Source of the DNA: a virus
Virus record (IMG/VR): IMGVR_UViG_3300050821_019647
Span: 1 to 39,027 of that record
Strand: one strand, 5' to 3'
DNA length: 39,027 bases
Each line of letters opens with the position of its first letter. Positions within the stretch are counted from its first letter, which is position 1. Position numbers and translations under genes: made by a program. The notes beneath the pieces are model-generated. The model worked only from the letters and a program-made list of their open reading frames with translations, did no database searches and was not told where the DNA came from. Below, piece after piece: positions 63-38,420 of the stretch.

Positions 63-1658
63 TTAACCGATCCATGTGGTGGCAAGTGTGACGGGTGGCA
101 TGGCCCTTTGGAGTGCACCGATTGTTTGAAAGCCTGTGGAGAGGCCGCCCGGCATGGTGCCAATACTTCCGGCCGACCCCATGTTCGCTCCAGGATAAAA
201 GTTTCGGCCGGTCGTGATTTGATAGACAATATTTGTGCCACTCCCGCCAGGTGCACTTGAAAGGGTGAGTGTCGTGCCGCTGACATTTGTGATCAGATAT
301 TGTTGGGCTGTCGCCCCCGTACCCGAGATGATATAGACAAAATCCTGGTTGATTGTAATACCCGTGGCCGACGTGATCGCCAGAGTGGACCCCGAGACGG
401 TCGCGCCCGTGCCGGTCAACTGGCCGACGTTTGCAAATCCAGGATTGAGTGCAATATCGCTTGGTCCCTTGGTGCAGTTGGAAACATCAGTCGTGTTGCT
501 ATAAAAATCATTAAAATTTAAGAAAAACGATGTTCCTTGAAGTGCGCCCGAAGCATCGGTAACACTGACTCCAGTCGCAAGGCCGGTAAAGATGTTGTTG
601 ATAATGACCTTGTTGGCCGCATTGGTGACAAGAGAAATGCCCGTGCCGGTTTTGTTGGTAATGCCGCCAAAAAATGTACAGCCGTTGATTATGTCCGACG
701 TATCGCAAGCGCCGCTGTAGGAGATGCCGGCCGTGACCATGGAGTCAAAGATGCAATTCGTATATGTCGAGCCGTAATTGCCCGTTCCATTTGTGTTTAA
801 AATGCCAATATCTGAGTCGTGAAAGTAGCTATTGGCGACTAAAATCTCGTTCGGACATGTGAGCCCCCTGCCGGCATATGAGACAAACTCGCAGCTTAAA
901 AACGTGTTGTAGTTTGCAGCCGTCACCGCGGCAATATTGGCGGTTGTCGCCGATAAAACAAATTTACAAAGATAAAAATGGCATCGTGTCCCGCTCGAAA
1001 CCTGTGTGGCTGCAATGTTGGACGAGAATATCATGCTGGTAAAATTAAAGTTGTTACCGCACAAGAAGACCTTGGAATTCAACACCGGCCTTAGGGCACC
1101 CGTGGGCTTATCCCCGCGTACCGAATTATAGCCTTCCCAGGAAATTTGCGTCAGTGTCCCGCCATTGGTTGTTATATTCAAGGTGCCAGAAAGGGTGTAA
1201 GTTGGGTGACTTGCCCCACCCAAAACCCAAACCTTGTTGCCTGCGACCATGGCGTTACAAACGGTTGAATCACTTGCGTCCTGCAAAGACAAGGCGCCGC
1301 CAACGTGGTAGGTACCGCTTGAGAGTGATGCCGACGTGCCGCAAGCCCTATCGAGTGTGGCGGCCCCGCCGCTGACTGATACGATTTCATAAAACCCGGC
1401 GGTCCAGTTGGTGCCGGAATTGATGTGGATTAGGTTTCCACAATCGGCTGAAACAAAACTATGGCTTGCACTGGTAACGACAGGGGGGTTCGTTGTTCCG
1501 ATTGTTGAGGCCAGATCGGCAAACGTGTACTGAGCCGTCAATTGCTGGCTATAATCTGTCCCGGGTGTTGCGTTTGACGGATTAAACCCCCCCGAATTTA
1601 CATTGGCGGCTGTCGCTTGCTGACGAATCTCAAATACGGTTGAAGCGGCTAAAGCCAT
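63..1658 (-). CDS. Tail spike-like protein with right-handed beta-helix
   Basis: 531 residues. The central part (about 130-400) has the irregular short repeats of a parallel beta-helix, with many N, G, S, T and I residues and rungs such as NCIFDS, NGCTFFGG and INNIFTG, as in phage tailspikes and polysaccharide lyases. Residues about 57-122 form a compact module ending in an LDRACG motif that recurs inside the propeller protein at 4123-5967. The C-terminal 100 residues are S/T/G rich. The start has an AAGGGG ribosome site upstream. It is the last of three adjacent adhesin genes, so host-surface binding or glycan cleavage is likely. No catalytic residues can be assigned by eye, so enzyme activity is open. 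Confidence 0.75.
   Translation of the reverse strand: MALAASTVFEIRQQATAANVNSGGFNPSNATPGTDYSQQLTAQYTFADLASTIGTTNPPVVTSASHSFVSADCGNLIHINSGTNWTAGFYEIVSVSGGAATLDRACGTSASLSSGTYHVGGALSLQDASDSTVCNAMVAGNKVWVLGGASHPTYTLSGTLNITTNGGTLTQISWEGYNSVRGDKPTGALRPVLNSKVFLCGNNFNFTSMIFSSNIAATQVSSGTRCHFYLCKFVLSATTANIAAVTAANYNTFLSCEFVSYAGRGLTCPNEILVANSYFHDSDIGILNTNGTGNYGSTYTNCIFDSMVTAGISYSGACDTSDIINGCTFFGGITNKTGTGISLVTNAANKVIINNIFTGLATGVSVTDASGALQGTSFFLNFNDFYSNTTDVSNCTKGPSDIALNPGFANVGQLTGTGATVSGSTLAITSATGITINQDFVYIISGTGATAQQYLITNVSGTTLTLSSAPGGSGTNIVYQITTGRNFYPGANMGSAGSIGTMPGGLSTGFQTIGALQRAMPPVTLATTWIG
1293..1490 (-). other. Shared LDRACG module in the spike gene
   Basis: This segment encodes spike residues about 57-122. 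It matches residues about 335-408 of the neighbouring propeller protein position by position: S-A-(S/T)-H-(S/T)-F, AD-x-G, I-(N/S)-SG, G-x-Y-x-I and LDRACG are kept in the same order and spacing. It therefore looks like a mobile adhesin domain used in two different architectures. Confidence 0.72.
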
Positions 1659-1670
1659 TTCATTTACCCC

Positions 1671-4130
1671 TTATGGCATCCAGTTGGCGATTGGCACTTG
1701 GAATTTTAAAGAAAAAGATTCAGCCGAGTTGTTAAACCCATAAAACCCACTGCCAAAAGCCGACCCTCCGCCGTTGGCTGTGTAAATCTTTATGCTCGTC
1801 GTCGAATATGGAATGGCAAAAATAGCATCCGACGAGCTTCCCATGGCCATTCCACCAGGATAAACATCATAGGCTGCCGCTGGGCTGCCTGACCCTATGA
1901 GGGTTGAATAGGTTGAGACACTGGATGCAAATGTAATTCCCGAAGGCATCGCTAAAATGTAGTCGCCCGTCCCGTTGCTCGAGCCGGAACTTGATGTGTA
2001 CTTAAACTGCACCCAAATCTCGGCGTTGGCCCCATCTCTGCGCCATTGGATGGCGTCCTTGACCATGCTCGTTGGCTTTGTCGGGTTCGTGGTGGTCCCA
2101 GTCCACGTGGTGGCAACGGCCGTGGACCAGGCCGTGTTGGTCACCCGGTTTGTGACATACCACACGCTTGTGCCATCACTTGTGACGGTAATGCTCTCTC
2201 CCGGTGTCCAAAGTCCGAAACTTGTAAGCGCCGTGTTCTGAAACCCTGCGTTGATCGTGTCCGACCCAGCACAGGTTAAAGTATTGGCGTGAGTCACGTC
2301 GGTGGCGTGCGTTTTTGTCATTGTGACGACAAAGCCTGCACCAGCGGAGGCTGCCAAGGGCAGTGTGGCCGTGGTGCCGGCATTACTCGAACAATAAGTC
2401 GTGCCGCTACTGGTCGACCCAATTGTAAAACTTGAGCCCGATTGCACCGAAATGGGGAAAAGCGGGGCCGACGCCGGCGCACTCCTGGTTACTTTCAAAA
2501 CCAAATTGATACGGGTTAAAGTCGATGCCGAGTTGACGTTAAATGCCAACACATCGCCAGCATTCACACTGGTCGTCCAGCCGGTGAGTGTTGAATCCTG
2601 GTAGTCCTGAGCCGAGGACAGCGTCGGTAAATCGCTTGCTGTAATGGTGTTGGTGACTGTCGGGGGGAAACTGGCGTAGGCGACTTTCCATATATCAATC
2701 ACCGCAGACCCGGACTGATCAGCTGCAAGAGTCACGCTATTAATCGTACAAGCGAAGGGCACGTATAAATAACCCTTTACGCCCGTCGTGGGTGCGGACC
2801 CACCGCCGTCAATCGTAATGCCCAAAGTCGCAGTAAAGGTGCCCGTGCCGGAGCCGCCTCCGGTGGCAGCCGATGAAATCCAAGTGGACCCGTTCGATGT
2901 TAAGACGTTGCCGCTTGTACTCGGAGCAACGAGAGTGGGGTTTGAGGTACCAGCACCCACGACCACACTGCCAGACGTGAGGGAGGTGAGCCCTGTTCCG
3001 CCGCTCGTGACGGGGAGTGTGCTGGATAAACCTGCCGCCGTGCCGCTCGTGTTTTGGTTCAAGGTCGGAAAATCGGCTGCGACCGCAATCGTAAGCGCGC
3101 CGGTTGAAGTCGTCGATTTGACAATACCGGTTGAAAGCCCTGAAGTCCCAGCCGAGTAGTCCGTGCCCGATGTGGCGGCTGAAATGGCCGTCCCATTGCC
3201 CTTTAATACGCCTGTTACACTCGTTGCCATGGTGATGGCAGGGGTGGATGTCGCATTGGCAACGGTGCCCGTAAAGCCATTGGCACTTGCAACAGAAACT
3301 GTTGTGACCGTGCCCGAGCCCCCGCCACCGCTGGCAGACGAGCTGACGTCCCACGTGCCGTTGCTTGAGCCAATGCTCGTGCAAGTGATATAGGCCTGTG
3401 TGCTGGCGCCGACGGTTGCGACAAGCGAGGCGCCGTGGTTATTGACGGTGACCGCGCCGGTGGAGCGATTGAGAATCGCAAATTGCTGGCCGACAACCAA
3501 AGTCGTCGCATCCGGCAATACGACGGTCTGTGTCGTGCTCCCTGTGAACTGTTGGTTGTATGCCGATGAGACGCTGAGAGTCGTAGTCCCCGCAGCCGTC
3601 GCTGTCGTGGCAAAATTCTCGATTAAATTATTGGCCTGGGTGTTGGCATTGGCATCCCGACCCATAACGCTCGATGCCGTGGCCGCCGTCACAAGCGATG
3701 TTGAGCCCGTCCCCCCGTTGGCGACAGGCAGGGCCGTCCCCGATAAACCAAATGCCAATGTGCCAGTCGTGGTGACAGGGTTGCCAGAAATCGACATGAA
3801 AGCTGGAACCGACACGTTGACCGATGTCACCGTGCCCGAGCCCGTCGCAGGCGTGGGCTCTGAGACATTGTCGACCGTAAATTGCGTATTGCCGAGCGAA
3901 TCTTGCACCACAAATTTATATGAGCCCGACGTAATCCATATTTCGGCAGATCCCGTGGAATCTAAAACCACGGGGTTTGAATTGGGTGTCACACCCGTCT
4001 CATCCGTGTACGTGGCTTGCGGTGTACTGGTTCCTGCGATGTAGGAATAAATAAGTCCGCCCGAAAGGGGGACACCATTGGAGTCAAAAAACCTTTGTTT
4101 TAAAACCGGACAAAGCGTCGTGTTAGACAT
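1671..4130 (-). CDS. Tail fibre protein with virion-anchoring-type N-terminal domain
   Basis: 819 residues. Residues 1-95 have the pattern FFDSNGVPLSGG, IYSYIAGTSTP, NPVVLDSTGSA, YKFVVQDSLGN. This type of domain starts many podovirus tail fibres and resembles in layout the head-binding domain of P22 tailspike. The next gene upstream starts with a clear paralogue of it. The middle holds G/S/T-rich fibre repeats such as NGGTGSTSL and SGGTGLTSL. A segment near residues 170-260 (GQQFAILNRSTGAVTVNN) is a motif common in receptor-binding fibres. The C-terminal 150 residues are Trp/Tyr-containing and probably the receptor-facing tip. Its start overlaps the upstream gene by 8 bases. Confidence 0.75.
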   Translation of the reverse strand: MSNTTLCPVLKQRFFDSNGVPLSGGLIYSYIAGTSTPQATYTDETGVTPNSNPVVLDSTGSAEIWITSGSYKFVVQDSLGNTQFTVDNVSEPTPATGSGTVTSVNVSVPAFMSISGNPVTTTGTLAFGLSGTALPVANGGTGSTSLVTAATASSVMGRDANANTQANNLIENFATTATAAGTTTLSVSSAYNQQFTGSTTQTVVLPDATTLVVGQQFAILNRSTGAVTVNNHGASLVATVGASTQAYITCTSIGSSNGTWDVSSSASGGGGSGTVTTVSVASANGFTGTVANATSTPAITMATSVTGVLKGNGTAISAATSGTDYSAGTSGLSTGIVKSTTSTGALTIAVAADFPTLNQNTSGTAAGLSSTLPVTSGGTGLTSLTSGSVVVGAGTSNPTLVAPSTSGNVLTSNGSTWISSAATGGGSGTGTFTATLGITIDGGGSAPTTGVKGYLYVPFACTINSVTLAADQSGSAVIDIWKVAYASFPPTVTNTITASDLPTLSSAQDYQDSTLTGWTTSVNAGDVLAFNVNSASTLTRINLVLKVTRSAPASAPLFPISVQSGSSFTIGSTSSGTTYCSSNAGTTATLPLAASAGAGFVVTMTKTHATDVTHANTLTCAGSDTINAGFQNTALTSFGLWTPGESITVTSDGTSVWYVTNRVTNTAWSTAVATTWTGTTTNPTKPTSMVKDAIQWRRDGANAEIWVQFKYTSSSGSSNGTGDYILAMPSGITFASSVSTYSTLIGSGSPAAAYDVYPGGMAMGSSSDAIFAIPYSTTSIKIYTANGGGSAFGSGFYGFNNSAESFSLKFQVPIANWMP

Positions 4131-5967
4131 TACTCAAATTCCTTACCCATAAGAGTGCATCGGTTGGGAGAATGGATGCCGACTGGTAGGTAAATATGTA
4201 GGGTGTTGAGGTATTGACCGTTGCTAAAAACTGCCCGGTCGGCCCCCAAGCAATGGCGCCCGAGGCCGACGTCGGCAGACTTCCAGGAGCCGAAAGTGCT
4301 GTAAATGTTAAAGCGAGCGAGGACACCTGATAAATTAAAACATATGGGGAGCTGTTGAGCGCTAAGGCCATATAAAGGCTGTTGGGTGACCAGGCAATGC
4401 CCGTGACGATGCTTGTGGGCGGCACGGCCGGGGTCGATGCCAAATGTGTAAATGAAACACCCGACACCTGATAAATCGCCAAGTAAGGGGAGCCCGCAAG
4501 GCCTACTGACAAAAACTGACCCGACGGCGAAAACTTAACACTTTGGCCGGCGGCTGGAAGGGTCGGGCTACTTATATATGTAAACGTTGTGCCCGAGATT
4601 TGGTAAATCGTTAAATAAGGTGCGCTCTGGCTAATGCACGCTAAGAATTGATTGTCTGGCGAAAAGGCCATCGAATAAACCGTGCCACCGGGGAGTGTCA
4701 GGGGTGCTGAGAGTGCTGTAAATAAGGGCTGGTTGTTATAAGCCGTGACGGCAAAAACGCCACCCGTGAGGGATGAGCCAAGCCCGCAGGCTCGATCCAA
4801 AATGGCAAATGACCCCGAGTTTCCGGTGATACGGTACACGCCGGGGGCGTAGCCGGCACCGGAGGAAATTTGTAAACTTAAGCCTATGTCCGCAGTCGTA
4901 AAGGTGTGTGTCGCTGATGCGACTTGTGGGTTTGCGGTGTTGGGGGTGGTGCAGGTCAAATTCCCACCACTATAAAGTGGAATAATGGGTGCGGATGTCA
5001 CCTGGTACATGGTCACAAAAGGTGTTGTCGCACTGCCGTGGGCAAAATATTCGCCATTCGGTGACCAGGCGCACGAGAAGCCATTGCCCGGCGGGATTGA
5101 TTCCGGATCATTGAGCTTTGTAAACGTATTTCCCTGCCGCAGATAGTTGGTCACAAAAGGTGTGGTCGTATGGGCGTAGGATAAAAAATCACCCTTTGGT
5201 GACCAAGCCACACCATTGGCGACACCCGTTGGCGTGGTTCCGGGCGTTGAGAGTGCCGTAAATGTGGAGCCAATGCGCTCATAAATAACGGCATAAGGGG
5301 AGGGGACTTCGGCTACGGCCAAAAACCTGCCATCGGGCGAAAAGGCACAACCATTGCCAACACCAGTCGGTAAAGTCGTCGGTGGTGCCAATTGGTTGGG
5401 TGATGTCCACGGGTATTGGGGTACTGCCTCAATGACCGAGCCCGTTAAATCGCTGCAGTTTTGAAAGACGACCTCAATCATATTATCAAGGCTCGTTAAA
5501 TCAATGGTCGGGTCAATGTTTCCAACCTCAATGGTGCCTGTCGCAATTTTTGAACCCGTCACGGCACTATTGGCAAGTTTTGTGGTTGTAACAGCCCCGC
5601 TTTGAATAAGGGTTGAGGTGATGGCACCCGCCGCAATAAGTGACGTCGTAATAGCACCCGCCGCAATTGCGCCAGCGCCAATGGAGCCTGTCTCGACAAT
5701 AAACACATTATCTTTAGTCGTGATGGTATTGCCTGAGGCATCTTTTAAAATAAATTTGTAGCCCGTACTGATGGGAATCCAAACACTGGCGCTTCCCGTT
5801 GAATCCAAAACCGTGGGGTTGGCGTTGGGTGTCCCTTGCGTTTGATCCGTGTAAGTCGCAAGCGGCGTTGAAGTGCCAGCGGCATAAGAATAAAGGGAGC
5901 CGCCCACAAGGGGATTGCCATTGGTATCAAGGAATTGTTGGATAAGGTTTGGCAGTAATTCAGCCAT
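4123..5967 (-). CDS. Tail fibre protein with seven WD40-like propeller repeats and an inserted module
   Basis: 614 residues. Residues 1-92 are a paralogue of the N-terminal domain of the downstream fibre. Residues 95-150 are short fibre repeats (AAGAITTSLI, SGAVTTTKL). From about 200 on there are seven repeats of about 46 residues, each with a core such as FSPDGRFLAVA, WSPKGDFLSYA or WGPTGQFLATV, at about 209, 255, 301, 435, 479, 527 and 574. This is the signature of a seven-bladed WD40/YVTN-like propeller. Between repeats 3 and 4 sits a foreign module of about 74 residues that is shared with the spike gene. Propellers bind glycans or proteins, so receptor recognition is the likely role. Confidence 0.75.
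   Translation of the reverse strand: MAELLPNLIQQFLDTNGNPLVGGSLYSYAAGTSTPLATYTDQTQGTPNANPTVLDSTGSASVWIPISTGYKFILKDASGNTITTKDNVFIVETGSIGAGAIAAGAITTSLIAAGAITSTLIQSGAVTTTKLANSAVTGSKIATGTIEVGNIDPTIDLTSLDNMIEVVFQNCSDLTGSVIEAVPQYPWTSPNQLAPPTTLPTGVGNGCAFSPDGRFLAVAEVPSPYAVIYERIGSTFTALSTPGTTPTGVANGVAWSPKGDFLSYAHTTTPFVTNYLRQGNTFTKLNDPESIPPGNGFSCAWSPNGEYFAHGSATTPFVTMYQVTSAPIIPLYSGGNLTCTTPNTANPQVASATHTFTTADIGLSLQISSGAGYAPGVYRITGNSGSFAILDRACGLGSSLTGGVFAVTAYNNQPLFTALSAPLTLPGGTVYSMAFSPDNQFLACISQSAPYLTIYQISGTTFTYISSPTLPAAGQSVKFSPSGQFLSVGLAGSPYLAIYQVSGVSFTHLASTPAVPPTSIVTGIAWSPNSLYMALALNSSPYVLIYQVSSLALTFTALSAPGSLPTSASGAIAWGPTGQFLATVNTSTPYIFTYQSASILPTDALLWVRNLSNV
4744..4965 (-). other. Shared LDRACG module inserted between propeller repeats 3 and 4
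   Basis: Encodes residues about 335-408 of the propeller protein. The flanking propeller repeats keep a period near 46 residues, but repeats 3 and 4 are about 134 residues apart, so this module interrupts the array. It carries the same motif order as spike residues 57-122 (SATHTF, TADIG, ISSG, GVYRI, LDRACG). Confidence 0.72.
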
Positions 5968-9934: not shown

Positions 9935-10402
9935 TTAATCAAGCCTCCTGGCCCAAATTGTTTCGGCCTTTTCGTATCCTAATTTTTCAAAAAGATTCCC
10001 ATAGTTAAACCAAGGTTTAGCGTGATGGGTGACGGTTATGACACCTTCATCCTTTAATTGCTTGTCACACCAAAAGAGAAATGACTTGCCGATGCCGCGA
10101 TAGGGTTTTCTCACATACAAAATGTCCTGAGATCCAACCAAAGTATTTTTATAATGCAAGTGATGATCGACCAGAAAAAATGCATAACCGTTGAGGACAC
10201 TCTCTTTAAACTCCTCGTTGAGCGGTGAGCGGATTGTAAAGCAACGAAGTTTGTTTAATTTCTCAAGTGTGGCGTATTTATCCCATTGCATATCGATGGG
10301 GATGTCTTTGTAATGCCCAACCTCCACCCAATGTTCATTTACTAAAATGGGTTCAATGTCTTTTCGGCATTGCTCTAAAGTTTCACGCTGAAAGTGGGGC
10401 AC
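9935..10402 (-). CDS. GNAT-family acetyltransferase
   Basis: 155 residues if it starts at the GTG at 10402-10400, which has AGGAG five bases upstream; an ATG ten codons earlier has no ribosome site and would overlap the upstream gene more. The acetyl-CoA-binding loop is visible as YVRKPYRGIGKSFLFW (Q/R-x-x-G-x-G/A type), followed by the C-terminal strand pattern NLFEKLGYEKAE found in GNAT enzymes. The substrate is unknown. It sits directly downstream of a hydroxylase gene within the virion operon, overlapping it by 20 bases, so the two are probably made together. GNAT proteins in such positions may modify virion or host proteins. Confidence 0.75.
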   Translation of the reverse strand: MPHFQRETLEQCRKDIEPILVNEHWVEVGHYKDIPIDMQWDKYATLEKLNKLRCFTIRSPLNEEFKESVLNGYAFFLVDHHLHYKNTLVGSQDILYVRKPYRGIGKSFLFWCDKQLKDEGVITVTHHAKPWFNYGNLFEKLGYEKAETIWARRLD

Positions 10403-10997
10403 GCTCTCTCCTATAGGTGGGTGATACGGCATCGATGATTAAATGCATTCTAGGTGTTTTGGATTTATTTATGGCCCAATGGACTTGCTTGTGGTTGAAC
10501 CAAAAAAATTCGCCGGGCTTCATATAGGCCGCTTCTGCTTTGCCGTTGCTGTCTTGAACGAAAAACTCATTGCCCTCATCCGACGTTAATACGAGATGAA
10601 AACGCTCAAAGTGATCAGCATACATGCCATAATCGCGATGGGGAATGACGACACCTTCGGGTTTAAGTTTGGCGATAAACGCCCGCCCAAGTTTGATCGC
10701 TCTTGCAGCCTTCAGGCATTCAAACAGCAAGGGTTTGACTTCTTTAATATTGAAAATGTTTTTATGGTTTTGGACGTTCAAACTATCCCTTACCGATTCA
10801 ATTGTGTTTTCCGGTGCCCAACGAAACATGACCGCTTCCGTGTCTTGTTGGGGGGATATGGGCCTTTCCAATTGGACGACGTAGTCTTGGCGCCAGGTGT
10901 TTTCGCGCCACAAATCAGGCTCAGCTTCAAGGCGCTCGCATAAAGGTCCAACCGCAATGTTTTCTGCAAGGCATTTAATTAAATCACCGTTGATCAC
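10383..10997 (-). CDS. Aspartyl/asparaginyl beta-hydroxylase-like 2-oxoglutarate Fe(II) oxygenase
   Basis: 204 residues. The iron-binding triad and co-substrate Arg are visible in order: H120-x-D122 (IPHRDYG), H173 (KQVHWAINKS) and R183 (PRMHLIIDA). The surrounding pattern GEFFWFN...H...N.S..PRMHLIID is characteristic of the Asp/Asn beta-hydroxylase family. These enzymes use 2-oxoglutarate and oxygen to hydroxylate protein side chains. The start is a GTG forming a 4-base GTGA overlap with the stop of the upstream gene. It is located among tail genes, not with metabolism genes, so a virion protein substrate is plausible but not shown. Confidence 0.8.
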   Translation of the reverse strand: MINGDLIKCLAENIAVGPLCERLEAEPDLWRENTWRQDYVVQLERPISPQQDTEAVMFRWAPENTIESVRDSLNVQNHKNIFNIKEVKPLLFECLKAARAIKLGRAFIAKLKPEGVVIPHRDYGMYADHFERFHLVLTSDEGNEFFVQDSNGKAEAAYMKPGEFFWFNHKQVHWAINKSKTPRMHLIIDAVSPTYRRERAPLSA

Positions 10998-22378: not shown

Positions 22379-22585
22379 CCAATCCAGGGGCTCCCTCATA
22401 TCAAAAAACAAATGCCCGCATAAGAGGCCTGCCAAAAACGGGATGTACGGATGGTAAAAACTAATGGTCGCAATGACCGCGGATTCGGTCGCGGGGTTGC
22501 CGTAAATTAGGTAAACAAAAATGTCGTAGGCGATCCATAAGACGACGGTTGATAAAATGATGATGCGGGTGATGGTTCGAATCAT
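22358..22585 (-). CDS. Small two-span membrane protein
   Basis: 75 residues. Two hydrophobic segments (about 5-27 and 43-62) flank a short polar loop (NPATESAVIAT), followed by a charged tail ending PKDETK. The pattern IAYDIFVYLIYG ... PYIPFLAGLLCGHLFF is typical of a small phage membrane protein of unknown function. Size and topology would also suit a holin, but it sits with DNA-modification and packaging genes, not beside the endolysin. Start and stop are ATGA overlaps. Confidence 0.65.
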   Translation of the reverse strand: MIRTITRIIILSTVVLWIAYDIFVYLIYGNPATESAVIATISFYHPYIPFLAGLLCGHLFFDMREPLDWPKDETK

Positions 22586-24552
22586 ACGGCCTCAATTCGT
22601 TTGTTGGCAATCTCGACATATTCTTCATTCATTTCGATGCCGATAAATTGAAAACCCAACCGTTTGGCTGCGACCAGCGTTGAACCAGAGCCAGCAAACG
22701 GATCCAGCACCACGCCGCCAGGGGGGCAAATAAGTTTTATTAAATATTCCATCAGTTTGATGGGTTTGACGGTGGGATGCGTAGACTTAAGAACGCCGCC
22801 GCTTTTTATCTGCAACAGATCGTTTGACTGTGCAGGACTTGCACTCGTAGCAGACCCCGTCGGGACGTTTATAATATTGATCGATGGGCTTAAACTTCCG
22901 GCAAGATCCGCATGGTTTCCACCACTGATTTCCAATAAGTTTGCATCCAGAATGTTCGCGCTTGTGTTGAAGTGGGCTAACCAGCTCAAGGTTTTCGATT
23001 CGATTGTCGAGGTTTTTACCGTTTTTGTGGTGGACTTGAAGTTTGCCAACGACGGGTCCGAAGTGCTGTTCCCAAACAACAACGTGTTCCATTCGGTAAC
23101 GCTTTTGACCAACGTCCCAGATGCGGCGATAACCTTTGGGGGAGATTGTGCCGTATCCACCTGGAGCTGAGCTTTTTGGTCCGCACTTTCCCATGAACCA
23201 ATACTTATATTAATTATCTCAATACAGTCAAGCCCCCGGTTCCTTTCAGATTTTGACGCCTTGGCCACGTAGAAAAAGCGAGAGGCGCCGCCGGTGTCAT
23301 TGCCGTATAACTTTTCAATTAGCCCACCACCAACATAACCGCCGTCCTTAGTATGCTTGCCCTGTCCGCGCTTATGCCCTGGATTGAGTGCACCGCTTTT
23401 TAATTGACCACTCTGCTCATCCAACAATTGGGCGGCCTTTTCATCGAAAATCACATTACTTGGCCATCTTCCGAGCTGCCCACCAGGACTTGCGGTATTC
23501 ACTGATTTTTCGCTTGGTTTCGGCTGTGCGTTTGAGATCGCCTTGTCTTGAATGGAGTTGTGAATGATCTTTTCGTGACATGATTTCAAGATTGTCGATT
23601 CGGTTATCGGTCCGGTCGCCATTGATGTGGTGGACGATGTGGCCCCGTGGGATTGCTCCGTTGTGTTCCTCCCATACAACTCTGTGCTCAAATCTTTGCA
23701 CTCGGTTTGGCTTATGTTTTGTGCCACCGGGTTCTGTCCATGCGAGCATGATATATCCGGCTTGAATGTGACGTCTTGCTCCAGTGATGCCTTTTCGCTC
23801 GAAGTTGGCGCGGCATCTTTTATTGCAATACATTCCTCTGTTGCCGATGTTGCGTGTTTCTGTGTGTCGCCCACAGGCTTTGCATTTGAATTTAAGAGGC
23901 CATCCTCTTTTACCCATACTGGTTTTGTTGCACTTGTCGTGCCAATCCGGCATGCGTCGATGTTAATACCACCGACACCATGCTTTAAAACATTGGCGGC
24001 CACGGTGAGTTTATGTTCCAGTGGTTTACGCGCGAGACATATCGGCTCGTTGGCGGGTTTTAATGCCGTGCCAAAGCCTTGCCATTTCTTGGCGGCGTCG
24101 GTGGAGGGGCCGGTTTTATGTTCTGGCCTCATTGGGGTTTTGCCACCTGCACCGCCCACCCAATCGTATTCATTTGGTCTATAAGCGGGGTTTTTACCAA
24201 TGACAGGCCGTTCATGCTCAGCCCCCGCCTGCTTATCAATCGCTTTGGAAATATCCAGGGATTTGGGGAAGCCTGAGCCATAAATCCATTGGATTTGGTC
24301 TCTTATTTCAAACCCAGCATCTTCGATAGCAGATACAAGTCGGTGATAAGTGCGAGTACCACCAAAACACAAACAATGTCCGCCCGGCTTGAGGACCCGA
24401 AGTGCTTCCTTCCAAATATCCACACAAGGAATGTCATAATCCCACTTCTTTCCCATAAACTTGATGCCATAAGGTGGATCTGTCACCACGCAATCAATCG
24501 AATGATCCGGCATCAAACGCATTTGCTCCAGGCAATCGCCGTGCAGGATCAT
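22582..24552 (-). CDS. DNA N4-cytosine/N6-adenine methyltransferase with two large in-frame insertions
   Basis: 656 residues, against roughly 350 expected. The catalytic motif DPPY is at 25-28 and the AdoMet-binding motif DPFAGSGST at 617-625; this order is that of beta-class methyltransferases. Conserved segments appear in normal order (KPGGHCLCFGGTRTYHR, QIQWIYGSGFPKS, KPANEPICLARKPL, GGINIDACRIG, GRWPSNVIFD, ASRFFYVAKASKSERN, THPTVKP), but about 154 residues are inserted after ACRIGT (about 204-357) and about 147 after ERNRGLD (about 442-589). Both inserts are S/T/N-rich low-complexity protein in this frame, and each contains an HNH endonuclease gene in another frame. The methyltransferase frame remains open throughout. 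It is probably an orphan anti-restriction or regulatory methylase; activity with such inserts is uncertain. Confidence 0.85.
   Translation of the reverse strand: MILHGDCLEQMRLMPDHSIDCVVTDPPYGIKFMGKKWDYDIPCVDIWKEALRVLKPGGHCLCFGGTRTYHRLVSAIEDAGFEIRDQIQWIYGSGFPKSLDISKAIDKQAGAEHERPVIGKNPAYRPNEYDWVGGAGGKTPMRPEHKTGPSTDAAKKWQGFGTALKPANEPICLARKPLEHKLTVAANVLKHGVGGINIDACRIGTTSATKPVWVKEDGLLNSNAKPVGDTQKHATSATEECIAIKDAAPTSSEKASLEQDVTFKPDISCSHGQNPVAQNISQTECKDLSTELYGRNTTEQSHGATSSTTSMATGPITESTILKSCHEKIIHNSIQDKAISNAQPKPSEKSVNTASPGGQLGRWPSNVIFDEKAAQLLDEQSGQLKSGALNPGHKRGQGKHTKDGGYVGGGLIEKLYGNDTGGASRFFYVAKASKSERNRGLDCIEIINISIGSWESADQKAQLQVDTAQSPPKVIAASGTLVKSVTEWNTLLFGNSTSDPSLANFKSTTKTVKTSTIESKTLSWLAHFNTSANILDANLLEISGGNHADLAGSLSPSINIINVPTGSATSASPAQSNDLLQIKSGGVLKSTHPTVKPIKLMEYLIKLICPPGGVVLDPFAGSGSTLVAAKRLGFQFIGIEMNEEYVEIANKRIEAV
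22787..23194 (-). CDS. HNH endonuclease gene nested in the methyltransferase gene (distal insert)
   Basis: 135 residues in a frame shifted by two bases from the methyltransferase. The HNH core is clear: EHVVVWEQHFG, then VHHKNGKNLDNRIENLELVS, then H in QHKREH. The C-terminus has a zinc-knuckle pattern (CGSC and CYECKSC) and a basic end. The ATG is just inside the insert and the TAA stop falls a few codons before the conserved THPTVKP of the methyltransferase, so the gene fills the insertion. There is no room for a group I intron. No strong ribosome site is seen. It probably acts as a homing endonuclease cutting insert-less methyltransferase genes. Confidence 0.85.
   Translation of the reverse strand: MGKCGPKSSAPGGYGTISPKGYRRIWDVGQKRYRMEHVVVWEQHFGPVVGKLQVHHKNGKNLDNRIENLELVSPLQHKREHSGCKLIGNQWWKPCGSCRKFKPIDQYYKRPDGVCYECKSCTVKRSVADKKRRRS
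23456..23953 (-). CDS. HNH endonuclease gene nested in the methyltransferase gene (proximal insert)
   Basis: 165 residues from the ATG at 23953, or 153 from an internal ATG (residue 13), in the same shifted frame as the other nested gene. A zinc-finger-like N-terminus (CKACG ... YCNKRCR) precedes the HNH core: FEHRVVWEEHNG, VHHINGDRTDNRIDNLEIMS, KDHSQLH. A basic tail follows. The stop lies within the bases coding for GRWPSN of the methyltransferase, so the gene spans the insertion exactly. The two nested proteins share about half of their core residues and are the same family, but sit in different loops. A homing function is inferred. Confidence 0.85.
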   Translation of the reverse strand: MPDWHDKCNKTSMGKRGWPLKFKCKACGRHTETRNIGNRGMYCNKRCRANFERKGITGARRHIQAGYIMLAWTEPGGTKHKPNRVQRFEHRVVWEEHNGAIPRGHIVHHINGDRTDNRIDNLEIMSRKDHSQLHSRQGDLKRTAETKRKISEYRKSWWAARKMAK

Positions 24553-26967: not shown

Positions 26968-26995
26968 AAAAGGCGCAGGCATTTCACCCGCGCCT
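26966..26995 (-). terminator. Rho-independent terminator of the early/lysis operon
   Basis: On the minus strand GAGGCGC..GG..CC..GCGCCT forms a 6-base-pair GC stem (arms 26990-26995 and 26971-26976) extended by two more pairs after one mismatch. It is followed at once by TTTTTT. It lies seven bases past the stop of the large secreted protein gene and ends the operon that starts near 36.8 kb. Confidence 0.85.
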
Positions 26996-27002
26996 CAAAG
27001 TA

Positions 27003-29519
27003 TTAACTATGGTGGGCAAATCCCAAATGATGGGGCTTTTTCTTCTTTAATTTCTTCTTGGCTACTGGCTTTTTCGATGCCAATGGTGATTCAACAGCCT
27101 TGACCATGGCTGCGACGATTGATCCCCAGGTCGTCAACGACTGCCCACTGTTTGTCATGCTGTAGTCAGGCACGCCATTGGGATTGAACCACACAAAACC
27201 CACGCCGCCGATACCATTGGCTGCTACGGCCTGCATAGCCGACACAATCGCTGCACCATCACTTGAGCTTGGGCTCGCGGTCGACTCAGATCCATACTCA
27301 TTGAAATTTATCGGCACGACACCGTCCGCACTCAACAATTGCTGTTGAGCAAGGTAACCGCTACTCGACGCAATACTGCCCTGAAGTCTCGCCAAAGCGC
27401 CTGCATTCGAACCTGAATAATAGGCGTGCATCCAGTAAACAATATTTGTCATTTGCAAATAGGCTTTCGGGTCAAACCCTAGTGCTGGACCAACTGAGCC
27501 AGGGTTGCCGTTGGTGCCGCCCTCTAAACTCACTATGTTTTGGTTTCCCGTCGCGCGGATCGCGTTGTAGAGCGCAAGCTCATAAGTCGAGATGCTGGCG
27601 CCGTTTTGATAAAGGCATCCATCCGCGCACAGTTCATTGAGCGAACCAATCCACGCATACGGATTGCCCACAAACTGTTTCGCCATCGCGGACCAGAACG
27701 CCAAATCTTGCCCAAGCTGCGAGCCAGTCGGCGGTGCACTCATCGTCGCACCAATGCCGCCCGGAATATCACTTTCCCAATACCCGCCGTTTGAAGAGTG
27801 GTCCTCAAACTCGCACACGACTTTTTGCGCCTGGCACCACTGCGCGAACGCTTGAAAATCCGACGCCGGCTCAAACGTCCATTGGGTGTTGGAATGATAC
27901 GTGGGGAATACAATTACCCGTACATGATTTGCGCCGGGCATCAGGTTTTTCAGATTCGCTTGGAGGGATTGCACATCGCCTGGGTCCCAATAAAGATTAA
28001 CGCCCTCGCTAACAAACTTTTTTCCACTCGGGTCAATAACCCAGCCGCCTTTGATTTGGAAATTTCCACTGGGCACAGGCGGAGGTACTGGCGAATTGCT
28101 TGGCCCAGGTGTTGGCGTCGGCGATGGCACAGGGCTTGGACTCGGGCCGATCCATTGGCCGTTGGTCCATGCATACCATCCAGAGCTTGCGGCATCCTCA
28201 CCCCAAATGCTCGGTGCAACATAAGTGAGTGCGGCCGTCCCGCTGCCGCCGGCAACGGCCGAACCATTTTCCATGACAACGCCAGCCGCAGTGAGCGACC
28301 ACACGTTGCCCGACCCGTCGGTAATTGTGCCGCCACTCGTAGGGGTCAATATCACGCTGCCAGCCGATGCGCTCGGGCTGGGTGAAGGCCCTGGCTGTGG
28401 GGATCCGCCGCTTGTTTGACTAAACAACCATTGATATAGCGCGGTGCCGTCGCCGCCATCGGCATTCATTCGGCCAAACGTGGTCCAGGGGCTGCCGCCG
28501 GGCATGTTTATATAATAAAACTGTGACTGACCCGCGCGAATCGCAGCCATACCGCCGGAATCGTATGCCGATTGCGAGGGGTAGTTGCTATTGCCCGTGA
28601 TGTACTGCCAAAACGGCTGGTCATAGCTTGAGGGGCTGTTATCCGACGGTGTGGATATTGCTAAATAAGGCACGTTTACCATGCGCGGGAACACCGACGA
28701 ATTCGGAGTGGACCTGAACAATTGCTCGCTCATGCCAACGCCGGCCGTCCAGAGTTTAAGCCCAAGGCTGTATTGTTGGTTGTTGTCGACAAGCTCCGCT
28801 AAAAAGCCAATTGCAGACAAAGAAAGTCCAACGCTATAGATTCTGGTGGTATCAACGCTGAAGTTTTGGACCATATGGCTGACGACCGCTGAGATAGCTT
28901 GCTCATTCCATCCCCCATTGGGGCTGTCAGCATACCCTCCGCAATTGGCATTGCCATTGGCGCCAGATAAATCAAGCGTCTGGTCGCACTGCACGGCGAC
29001 AATGATGGTCGGGTGGGCGGTGCGAAAGGCTGTGGTGTTAAACGTAAACCCATCCCCCTCCATGGCCGAGACGAACACGCCGCCATCCCGAGGGTAACTT
29101 GAGCCATTCATGCCTTGGTCATTGCCCGCACCAACGACCATGAGCGGGTAAACAAATTGTGAGCTATAGCCTTGCGGCAGCAGGTAGTTGTATTGCATGC
29201 CCTGATAACCACTTGGGCTCCCCCCTAAGGGTTGAAGCTGGTTTGTCACCCATGAGCCTGCCGAAACAGCGCCGGTGAGCGGTGCTGGTACCCTTGGCTT
29301 GCCCGATGCCGATGGTTGCGGCGACGGCGACACACTTGGGCTTGGCGATGCCGTTGGACTCGGCGATGGTGTCGCATGTGGAACAATTTGCAGGCTGACC
29401 ATTTGGCCCGGCACCGTGGTGCTTGTCCCATCGGCATTGGTGATCATCGTGTCGCTCGACGCCATGTGCGGCACTATCGCCGTCAGCGTCAAAATTAAAA
29501 AGATTTGGTGTAGTTTCAA
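27003..29519 (-). CDS. Secreted multidomain protein: esterase-like domain, small beta module, GH5-like hydrolase
   Basis: 838 residues from a TTG with a GGGGGG site. A signal peptide (1-20, hydrophobic FLILTLTAIV, likely cut after HMA) and a PSPSP linker (49-72) precede an alpha/beta-hydrolase domain of the PHB-depolymerase/CE1 type (about 90-370) with elbow GLSLS (Ser233). No His follows Ser233 within the domain, so the triad looks incomplete. A linker, a 75-residue beta module (about 386-458; VWSLTAAGVVMENG, WYAWTNGQW) and a second PSP linker lead to a GH5/clan GH-A-type domain (about 487-805): candidate acid/base E629 in NEL, H698 and Y700, candidate nucleophile E741 in NEYGS, W777. The C-terminus is lysine-rich. 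It could degrade plant or bacterial polysaccharide outside the cell. Such an enzyme is unusual in a phage this small. Confidence 0.75.
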   Translation of the reverse strand: MKLHQIFLILTLTAIVPHMASSDTMITNADGTSTTVPGQMVSLQIVPHATPSPSPTASPSPSVSPSPQPSASGKPRVPAPLTGAVSAGSWVTNQLQPLGGSPSGYQGMQYNYLLPQGYSSQFVYPLMVVGAGNDQGMNGSSYPRDGGVFVSAMEGDGFTFNTTAFRTAHPTIIVAVQCDQTLDLSGANGNANCGGYADSPNGGWNEQAISAVVSHMVQNFSVDTTRIYSVGLSLSAIGFLAELVDNNQQYSLGLKLWTAGVGMSEQLFRSTPNSSVFPRMVNVPYLAISTPSDNSPSSYDQPFWQYITGNSNYPSQSAYDSGGMAAIRAGQSQFYYINMPGGSPWTTFGRMNADGGDGTALYQWLFSQTSGGSPQPGPSPSPSASAGSVILTPTSGGTITDGSGNVWSLTAAGVVMENGSAVAGGSGTAALTYVAPSIWGEDAASSGWYAWTNGQWIGPSPSPVPSPTPTPGPSNSPVPPPVPSGNFQIKGGWVIDPSGKKFVSEGVNLYWDPGDVQSLQANLKNLMPGANHVRVIVFPTYHSNTQWTFEPASDFQAFAQWCQAQKVVCEFEDHSSNGGYWESDIPGGIGATMSAPPTGSQLGQDLAFWSAMAKQFVGNPYAWIGSLNELCADGCLYQNGASISTYELALYNAIRATGNQNIVSLEGGTNGNPGSVGPALGFDPKAYLQMTNIVYWMHAYYSGSNAGALARLQGSIASSSGYLAQQQLLSADGVVPINFNEYGSESTASPSSSDGAAIVSAMQAVAANGIGGVGFVWFNPNGVPDYSMTNSGQSLTTWGSIVAAMVKAVESPLASKKPVAKKKLKKKKPHHLGFAHHS

Positions 29520-29556
29520 AAAAAATCCCCCCTTATGGCCTTACCTTAAGACCGAA

Positions 29557-30123
29557 TCATTGCGTTGGATTAGCCGTGGTCGTAAGCGTCAAAAGTCGAT
29601 CGGCCCTTGAAAGCCACCCATCCAAAAACTTATCCAACGCCGGATTGTGCTCGGCAATCGACTCATAGGCTTCGTGCATCGTGCCCGAAAGGGCCGTAAT
29701 GATCGCGTCAGGTTGCCCTAGGTTTAACGTTTGTAGCGTCAGCGGTCCAACTACTCCGTCGACGACTAATGGCTTGAGCGGCGCGTTTTTTTGCGCAGAA
29801 ACGGTATTTAAAACACACTGCAGGCACTTCACCGCTGATGGAACGCCTAGACTGACTGCGGCATCAAAAATCGCCGTCGCCACATTTTGGTCGAAAACCT
29901 GATCCAAACTGAGCGGCTGCCACCACCAAAAATAATAAATCCGCTTGGCTTCCATGGGGGTCAGGGCTTGCATGTCAGCCTCAGAGACGGCCTTGCCCCT
30001 CCAGCGGGTTAAGTCTTCCTGGGTGATCCCCATGTTGGTCATCCCGCCCTTGTCGGATGGGTCGTCGGAGTATCCGCCTTCATTTTTGAACACGTAGTCG
30101 ATCGATAAGTCGATGTTAGCCAC
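29557..30123 (-). CDS. Endolysin, glycoside hydrolase family 108 type
   Basis: 188 residues from the GTG at 30123, which has AAGGGGA upstream and overlaps the resolvase stop by 8 bases. The GH108 signature is at the N-terminus: IDYVFKNEGGYSDDPSDKGG with T-N-x-GIT, where E15 is the catalytic Glu. It continues with the Trp-rich IYYFWWWQPL. The second half (PLVVDGVVGPLTLQTLN) matches the peptidoglycan-binding part that follows in this family. It cleaves peptidoglycan glycan strands. No signal peptide or adjacent holin is visible. It lies in the early operon, not with the virion genes. Confidence 0.87.
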   Translation of the reverse strand: MANIDLSIDYVFKNEGGYSDDPSDKGGMTNMGITQEDLTRWRGKAVSEADMQALTPMEAKRIYYFWWWQPLSLDQVFDQNVATAIFDAAVSLGVPSAVKCLQCVLNTVSAQKNAPLKPLVVDGVVGPLTLQTLNLGQPDAIITALSGTMHEAYESIAEHNPALDKFLDGWLSRADRLLTLTTTANPTQ

Positions 30124-30538
30124 ACTTTTCCCCTTCGCTTTGGTTAAATTTGAAAATCTGAATTTGAATGCCTTCCCCATGGCCAAAGCGCTTTTCAGCG
30201 GTGACCCTTTGGACTTGCCGGTCATTTTGCAAAATCCCCGACTTTTGCAAGACGTCGAGTGGGCCGCCCAAACAGTTGTCGATGTCGGGCTCGTGCAGGT
30301 GGGATTTAAAATAAAACACCATGTGCACCTCGACAGGACACGTGATCTGGCGCTCCTTTTCGAGCGACGTCTGATCCAGCAACGCTTTTAAAAGCCATGT
30401 GACGGCCATCCTTTCCCACGCCAAATATTTTGGGCTTGAAATCAGCGTTGGCCTACGCCCGCCGCGGCCAGGGATGATTTGCTTTGAGTTTTTCTTAATC
30501 GCCACACGGCCCGGGATGGTCGCTTGGAAAAGTATCAC
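30116..30538 (-). CDS. rusA: RusA-family Holliday junction resolvase
   Basis: 140 residues. The acidic catalytic motif EPDIDNCLGGPLDVLQKSGI (D85, D87, D95) is followed by NDRQVQRVTAEK (D106), as in RusA. The enzyme is a dimer that cuts four-way junctions formed in replication and recombination. It starts at a GTG in a GTGA overlap with the upstream gene and is placed between replication genes and endolysin. Resolving branched concatemers before packaging is a likely role. Confidence 0.88.
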   Translation of the reverse strand: MILFQATIPGRVAIKKNSKQIIPGRGGRRPTLISSPKYLAWERMAVTWLLKALLDQTSLEKERQITCPVEVHMVFYFKSHLHEPDIDNCLGGPLDVLQKSGILQNDRQVQRVTAEKRFGHGEGIQIQIFKFNQSEGEKCG

Positions 30539-37604: not shown

Positions 37605-38399
37605 TCATTTGCGAATCGTCCACATGTCCCACGCAATTTCAGTGTCCGTCAAATATTGGTACGGGATGTAGGCATAGCCTTTGAGACCCCAATCAGACCC
37701 CCAAGAATTGCGGAAAATAAAGGCCTGCCTGGAATCATCATAGCCAACGCACAAAAGGGCATGCCCACCCAAAGCCTCCTCCGAGCTCACGTCAGGCATC
37801 GGGACCATACCGGTTTGAGCGACCGCATCGGATTCAAACGAGGAATAAATTGTCACACCAAACACAAAGGGATTGCCCGAGGCCAGGCATGTTTTCATAG
37901 CGGCCAGTTTGGAATTGTCGATCAAATACCCCGAAATACCGCTGTGGCTTTTGGCCTCTTGATAAGCTGGCGTTGGCGGCGCTAAAAGCACATTGGCCTC
38001 CACATAGGGCCATGTCGTCTCTTGGCATATCCCCCAATGGCCAATGGCCTTAATACCGTTGGCAAGTGTTGCCCCACCATCGGTTGAAACATCGCCTTCT
38101 AAAAGGCGCTCGTTATAATAAATAAAAAGCCTGGATAAACTATCAAAGCTCTTGGGATCAAAAACCTCGGGCGCTGCCGCATCGCTCGTAAGATCCGCCA
38201 GCTCTAAAAATTCCAAAGCACCAGCCAAGGCATTGCCGGTGCAGGAGCCGATGTCACCTTGGTCAAAAACGGGGGAGCATTGGGGCCGCAAGTCCACAAC
38301 ACTCGGCAATAAAAAGCGGCTTAAAAACAAGCGCGGCTGATAATGCTCGGCCTTTTTGTCGTACGCACTTCTTTTCGCATTGTATTTGCGTTTTCCCAT
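37605..38399 (-). CDS. Papain-family (C1) cysteine peptidase
   Basis: 264 residues from the ATG with GGGGGGA upstream. The catalytic set is visible: Q47 and C53 in FDQGDIGSCTGNALAGALEF, H213 in GGHALLCVGYDD and N231 in FIFRNSWGSDWG. The first 30 residues are basic (GKRKYNAKRSAYDKK), without a signal peptide or obvious propeptide. It is the last gene of the virion operon. It may be packaged and act on the host envelope, trim virion proteins or attack host proteins. Bacteria also encode such enzymes, so transfer from a host is possible. Confidence 0.85.
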   Translation of the reverse strand: MGKRKYNAKRSAYDKKAEHYQPRLFLSRFLLPSVVDLRPQCSPVFDQGDIGSCTGNALAGALEFLELADLTSDAAAPEVFDPKSFDSLSRLFIYYNERLLEGDVSTDGGATLANGIKAIGHWGICQETTWPYVEANVLLAPPTPAYQEAKSHSGISGYLIDNSKLAAMKTCLASGNPFVFGVTIYSSFESDAVAQTGMVPMPDVSSEEALGGHALLCVGYDDSRQAFIFRNSWGSDWGLKGYAYIPYQYLTDTEIAWDMWTIRK

Positions 38400-38420
38400 T
38401 GGTCCCCCCAAAAAAAGATT

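Follow-up and report, generated by a model that had tools for sequence, protein, structure and literature searches.

A temperate phage gene for a signal-peptide-bearing GH5 protein with an esterase-like domain: a candidate secreted polysaccharide hydrolase

The window, by which we mean the whole stretch of DNA that was analysed, is 39,027 bases long, bears a direct terminal repeat of 52 bases and represents a phage record that is complete or nearly so. It carries genes for a P22-like portal, a terminase, an integrase and a GH108 endolysin, and is unambiguously a phage genome; the phage is temperate. The gene studied here is an open reading frame of 838 codons that spans exactly positions 27003-29519 on the minus strand, with a TTG start at 29519 and the stop codon at 27005-27003. 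The original prediction had these coordinates exactly right but did not give the strand; a plus-strand reading of the same interval runs into many stops and was rejected. At 2517 of 39,027 bases, the gene takes up about 6 percent of the genome, in agreement with the earlier estimate. The terminase and portal genes lie to one side of it and the endolysin and integrase genes to the other. The endolysin gene (29557-30225, minus strand) is directly upstream with a gap of 37 nt, and a Shine-Dalgarno-like AAGGGGGG at 29527-29534 (minus strand) stands 7 nt from the TTG start. The sequence immediately in front of the gene in the window phage yielded no promoter-like site. Directly 3' of the gene, an intrinsic-terminator-like hairpin of 12 pairs followed by TTTT occupies 26970-26996 on the same strand.

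A scan with the small beta module of the protein, described below, led to a second phage, L006 (39,203 bases, 56-base terminal repeat). Its 811-aa protein has the full layout and is about 70-71% identical to the window protein over the full length. The L006 ortholog starts at the homologous place with a GTG codon and a textbook signal peptide, has a matching AAAAAGGGGG upstream of its start, and is likewise followed by a terminator-like hairpin. Between the two copies the dN/dS over the whole ORF is about 0.11, with dS near saturation. Purifying selection over the entire reading frame means that it did not arise by chance, and the ORF is confirmed at the sequence level as a real gene. The same value bears on the possibility that the phage picked up a decaying bacterial gene by recent accident and has no use for it. 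The sporadic presence of the gene among related phages would fit such an origin. Strong purifying selection, intact catalytic residues, the ribosome site and the terminator all speak against it, as does the full-length copy in another complete phage, and we regard this explanation, rejected on dN/dS, as largely refuted and very improbable.

The layout of the protein, with all features on the minus strand, agrees with the signal peptide, PSPSP linkers and small beta module that had been predicted. Residues 1-22 (29454-29519) are a signal peptide by inspection and by alignment with L006, in which MKKKILTVAVFLGLFALA is followed by DT; cleavage is likely before Asp-Thr, L006 having an ALA/DT junction there, and the N-terminus is hydrophobic in both full-length orthologs. 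A short N-terminal segment, DTxITNxDGTxTTVPGxMVSLxIVPH (residues 23-48, 29376-29453), is 81% identical to L006. It leads into a Pro/Ser/Thr linker (residues 49-78, 29286-29375) that is poorly conserved, as expected for a linker. An esterase-like alpha/beta-hydrolase domain (residues 79-372, 28404-29285) is followed by a Pro/Ser linker (residues 373-389, 28353-28403), the beta module (residues 390-460, 28140-28352), a further Pro/Ser/Thr linker (residues 461-485, 28065-28139) and the GH5 catalytic domain (residues 486-808, 27096-28064). The C-terminal tail (residues 809-838, 27006-27095) contains the Lys-rich stretch KKPVAKKKLKKKK and is missing from L006. A search of the whole protein against Pfam found GH5 as the only family, and a search against PHROGs found none. 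No Pfam family scored above cut-off for the beta module, which thus matches no described carbohydrate-binding module; that it binds polysaccharide is a guess.

The gene had been placed at the end of the lysis operon. The endolysin directly upstream and the terminator directly downstream agree with this placement; no holin or spanin, however, was recognised beside the gene in the window phage, and in the L006 phage the GH5 gene and a repressor-like gene converge, and the endolysin is not adjacent. The end of the lysis operon is therefore not a conserved placement. The window and L006 phages have in common tail fibres (80-81%), a RecT-like protein (87%), a methylase and the GH5 gene, and no matches between their portal, terminase and capsid genes were found. 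Among 15 other records that share the RecT-like protein, several of which are fragments, the GH5 gene has a real match in L006 only. The different position in L006 and the absence from the other 14 records make a cargo pattern and weaken the lysis-operon reading, so that the gene appears to behave as mobile cargo rather than as a lysis gene. The portals and terminases nearest to those of the window among cultured phages belong to P22-like podophages of mixed hosts, and no tRNA or Rfam RNA was found in the window, hence no att-site clue to the host.

Several other features of the window were observed. The tail fibres at 63-4130 and those at L012/L013 are 80-81% shared while the head genes have no detectable similarity, pointing to a common host and to modular exchange. 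Within a DNA methylase ORF (22582-24552, minus strand), two further ORFs, read in different frames, encode HNH endonucleases (22787-23194 and 23456-23953). The first of them shows 99% identity between the window and L006 phages, against 90% for the flanking methylase, and this contrast fits what would be expected of recently mobile homing endonucleases. On the minus strand, the window also encodes a papain-family (C1) cysteine peptidase (37605-38411; Pfam E 2.4e-12), which is unusual in a small temperate phage, a tail-fibre-like protein with WD40-type beta-propeller repeats (4123-5967) and, among the structural genes, an aspartyl/asparaginyl beta-hydroxylase-like protein (10383-10997).

The GH5 domain matches PF00150 over residues 496-777 with an E value of 4.5e-15 and 56.3 bits, against a cut-off of 23.5, and the L006 ortholog matches the same family (E 7.8e-14). 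GH5 enzymes use a retaining mechanism with two Glu residues. A profile built from three phage GH5 domains picks up the mannanases 4fk9, 1bqc and 2whl, and aligns with solved mannanases at the R, H, NE, HxY and nucleophile E sites. The full-length protein modelled with AlphaFold, at modest confidence (mean pLDDT 53.5), has eight beta/alpha units in residues 505-810. In the model strand 4 ends at the acid/base Glu629 (27635-27633), and the nucleophile Glu741 (27299-27297) comes directly after strand 7; both are invariant in the three phage copies and align with the corresponding Glu residues of 4fk9. A TIM barrel and a Glu pair, the two features whose loss was to count against the predicted GH5-type domain, were checked and are both present, and the profile match and the model together make GH5 membership firm. 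Structural alignment of the model (residues 484-816) to GH5 mannanase and mannosidase structures gave Z scores of 17-19, at about 12-18% identity to the beta-mannanases. The best sequence matches are mannanases, and other GH5 subfamilies are nearly equal by fold score. By profile and model, then, most of the nearest proteins of solved structure are GH5 beta-mannanases, and an identity of about 16% to known mannanases is too low for the substrate to be read from it.

What four phages have in common is the esterase-like domain, which is also the best-conserved large part of the protein. It is 81% identical between the window and L006 copies (dN/dS 0.09), whereas the GH5 domain is 60% identical. 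This difference could mean that it is the main functional part, a point against the reading favoured below. A profile of the four phage copies reaches the esterase 3doh (E 2e-5), which is also the best fold match, with Z scores of 14.8 for the domain model and 17.7 for the full model, both models being of modest confidence. Ser233 (28823-28821), at the nucleophile-elbow position, and Asp293 (28643-28641) are invariant in the four copies, two of which carry GxSxS in place of GxSxG. In related esterases the catalytic His is expected before the last helix. In the alignment of the four copies no His column is common to all, and the stretch before the last helix reads GGSPW or similar with no shared His; the expected place is taken here from general knowledge of related esterases rather than from a residue-level structural alignment. 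The predicted esterase-like part therefore has the alpha/beta-hydrolase fold but no conserved catalytic His in the four copies.

Could the two domains nevertheless act together, the esterase-like domain clearing the backbone of acetyl or feruloyl groups for cleavage by GH5? An esterase and a GH5 enzyme would be a sensible pair for acetylated glucomannan, and the invariant Ser and Asp, the low dN/dS and the best fold match to an esterase all point this way. Such a bifunctional enzyme would be compatible with a cargo, a nutritional or a virion role. Because no catalytic His is conserved in the four copies, a working esterase is doubtful, and the substituted Gly of GxSxG weighs in the same direction; we consider the bifunctional enzyme rather unlikely. 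The domain is probably a pseudo-esterase that has lost its catalytic His, for which a binding or other non-catalytic role would be the simplest reading.

Parts of the same layout recur in phage proteins of other kinds. The L007 protein has the esterase-like domain, the module and two Fn3 domains, without a signal peptide and without GH5. Its gene sits between the small and large terminase genes, next to one for an Fn3 protein that weakly matches tail fibre J. Two contigs, of 38 and 116 kb (L010 and L011), do not differ over the 20,963 bases compared and code for a protein of 1619 aa in which the esterase-like domain is joined to two modules and GH5. On the 116-kb contig a second GH5 protein of 1655 aa (L041, 4557-9524) combines the beta module with Fn3 repeats, and its module is matched at E 1.7e-10 by a profile from which L041 was left out. 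The L041 gene is part of a baseplate operon, with tail-lysin-like genes on one side and baseplate genes on the other. The L007, L010 and L041 proteins thus share with the window protein several of the esterase-like domain, the module and GH5. They differ from it in having no signal peptide and in carrying extra Ig- or Fn3-type repeats, and two of the three have a tail or packaging neighbourhood. No relatives were found by tblastn in 50,697 phage records and 72,556 plasmids, and the esterase-like part alone gave one insignificant match among the plasmids. None appeared either in a scan of 84,980 bacterial and archaeal genomes that needs exact short peptides and so leaves bacterial kin possible. 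A match in G006 was discarded since it covers mainly the Pro-rich linker.

These relatives raise the possibility that the window protein is itself a virion-associated depolymerase, a part of the tail like the GH5 and esterase-like proteins of other phages. The baseplate setting of L041, the position of L007 between packaging genes with no signal peptide, and fold matches among viral proteins that include GH5 proteins of Erwinia phage and of Pseudomonas phage Skulduggery are consistent with it. Virions assemble in the cytoplasm, however, out of which the signal peptide of both full-length orthologs would carry the protein, and the gene lies outside the structural block, 3' of the endolysin, at a position that is not conserved. 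A tail component is accordingly an improbable role for this protein.

Then, what would such a protein do for the phage? An intact GH5 domain, a signal peptide, linkers, a module, an alpha/beta-hydrolase domain and purifying selection are all present, and the gene occurs in two complete phages. From this anatomy we favour, with moderate confidence, a multidomain polysaccharide hydrolase that the phage carries as cargo and that, exported through Sec, would cut a mannan- or cellulose-like matrix around the host cells. Export would be followed by release of the protein from the cell. On the polysaccharide it may be held by the beta module and the probably inactive esterase-like domain, while the GH5 barrel would use the retaining two-Glu mechanism to cut beta-1,4-mannosidic or glucosidic bonds inside the chain. 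The matrix polysaccharide around the host cells is the most likely target, since other phages have the same domains in proteins linked to the tail or to packaging, and the outcome could be easier escape of progeny or access to neighbouring cells. One point against secreted matrix clearing is that a Sec signal alone leaves passage through the outer membrane, if the host has one, unexplained.

Polysaccharide hydrolases carried by phages are believed to have one of two roles: they feed the host, with effects on soil carbon turnover, or they act for the virion at the cell surface. The place beside a repressor, which the L006 copy occupies away from the endolysin, is usual for cargo expressed in lysogeny. 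The window gene might be a nutritional auxiliary gene, expressed from the prophage, with which the lysogen digests plant or fungal beta-mannan or cellulose nearby. The nearest solved relatives are mannanases, many of which act on plant polysaccharides, and a viral GH5 mannanase active on plant glucomannan exists (PMC6786970). The window copy, however, is in line with the endolysin with no promoter-like site in front of it, the same domains occur in tail-linked phage proteins without signal peptides, and no gene for sugar uptake or utilisation was recognised in the ORF list. Feeding of the lysogen on plant mannan is thus our second choice after matrix clearing, possible but unlikely.

More tentatively, the His-less esterase-like domain and the module, with or without GH5, may be a phage-specific set that moves between tail-linked virion proteins and Sec-exported enzymes, so that a tail depolymerase would have become a secreted matrix-clearing enzyme and the esterase-like domain would represent a new family of polysaccharide-binding pseudo-enzymes. 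The occurrence of the same domains in exported and in tail-linked settings permits a direct comparison of both roles, and the conserved domain without His is a clear and testable candidate for a binding pseudo-enzyme.

Viral GH5 enzymes are already known, and the window protein is not new in kind. Its layout of signal peptide, His-less esterase-like domain, module and GH5 is undescribed in the papers and libraries searched, and the domain combination recurs in other phages. Nearest by sequence are the GH5 beta-mannanases 4fk9, 3wsu/4y7e, 1bqc and 2whl, which we take to belong to subfamily GH5_8. They share with the window protein the TIM barrel, the Glu pair and the Arg, His, Asn-Glu and His-x-Tyr sites; the window protein differs in being phage-encoded and joined to an esterase-like domain and a beta module. 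The thermostable 3doh and PHB-depolymerase-like esterases such as 8daj have the alpha/beta-hydrolase fold and the nucleophile-elbow Ser region in common with the phage domain, which, unlike them, has no conserved catalytic His. Among viral proteins, the peat-bog GH5 encoded on contig Bog_ctg_46288_cat2 was expressed and has endomannanase activity on glucomannan and galactomannan (PMC6786970). It is likened to the window protein by description only, both being virus-encoded GH5 proteins; the measured activity is that of the peat-bog enzyme, which was assigned to polysaccharide breakdown. Erwinia phage S6 gp095 has a C-terminal GH5 domain and cleaves carboxymethylcellulose, and cellulose is the first receptor of this phage (PMC9544554). 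Together with its homologs, as in Pseudomonas phage Skulduggery, it resembles the window protein in its several domains, of which the C-terminal one is GH5, and in its predicted Glu pair. Gp095 and its homologs have other N-terminal domains (choice-of-anchor D) and are linked to host cellulose as first receptor, whereas the window protein carries a signal peptide and an esterase-like domain.
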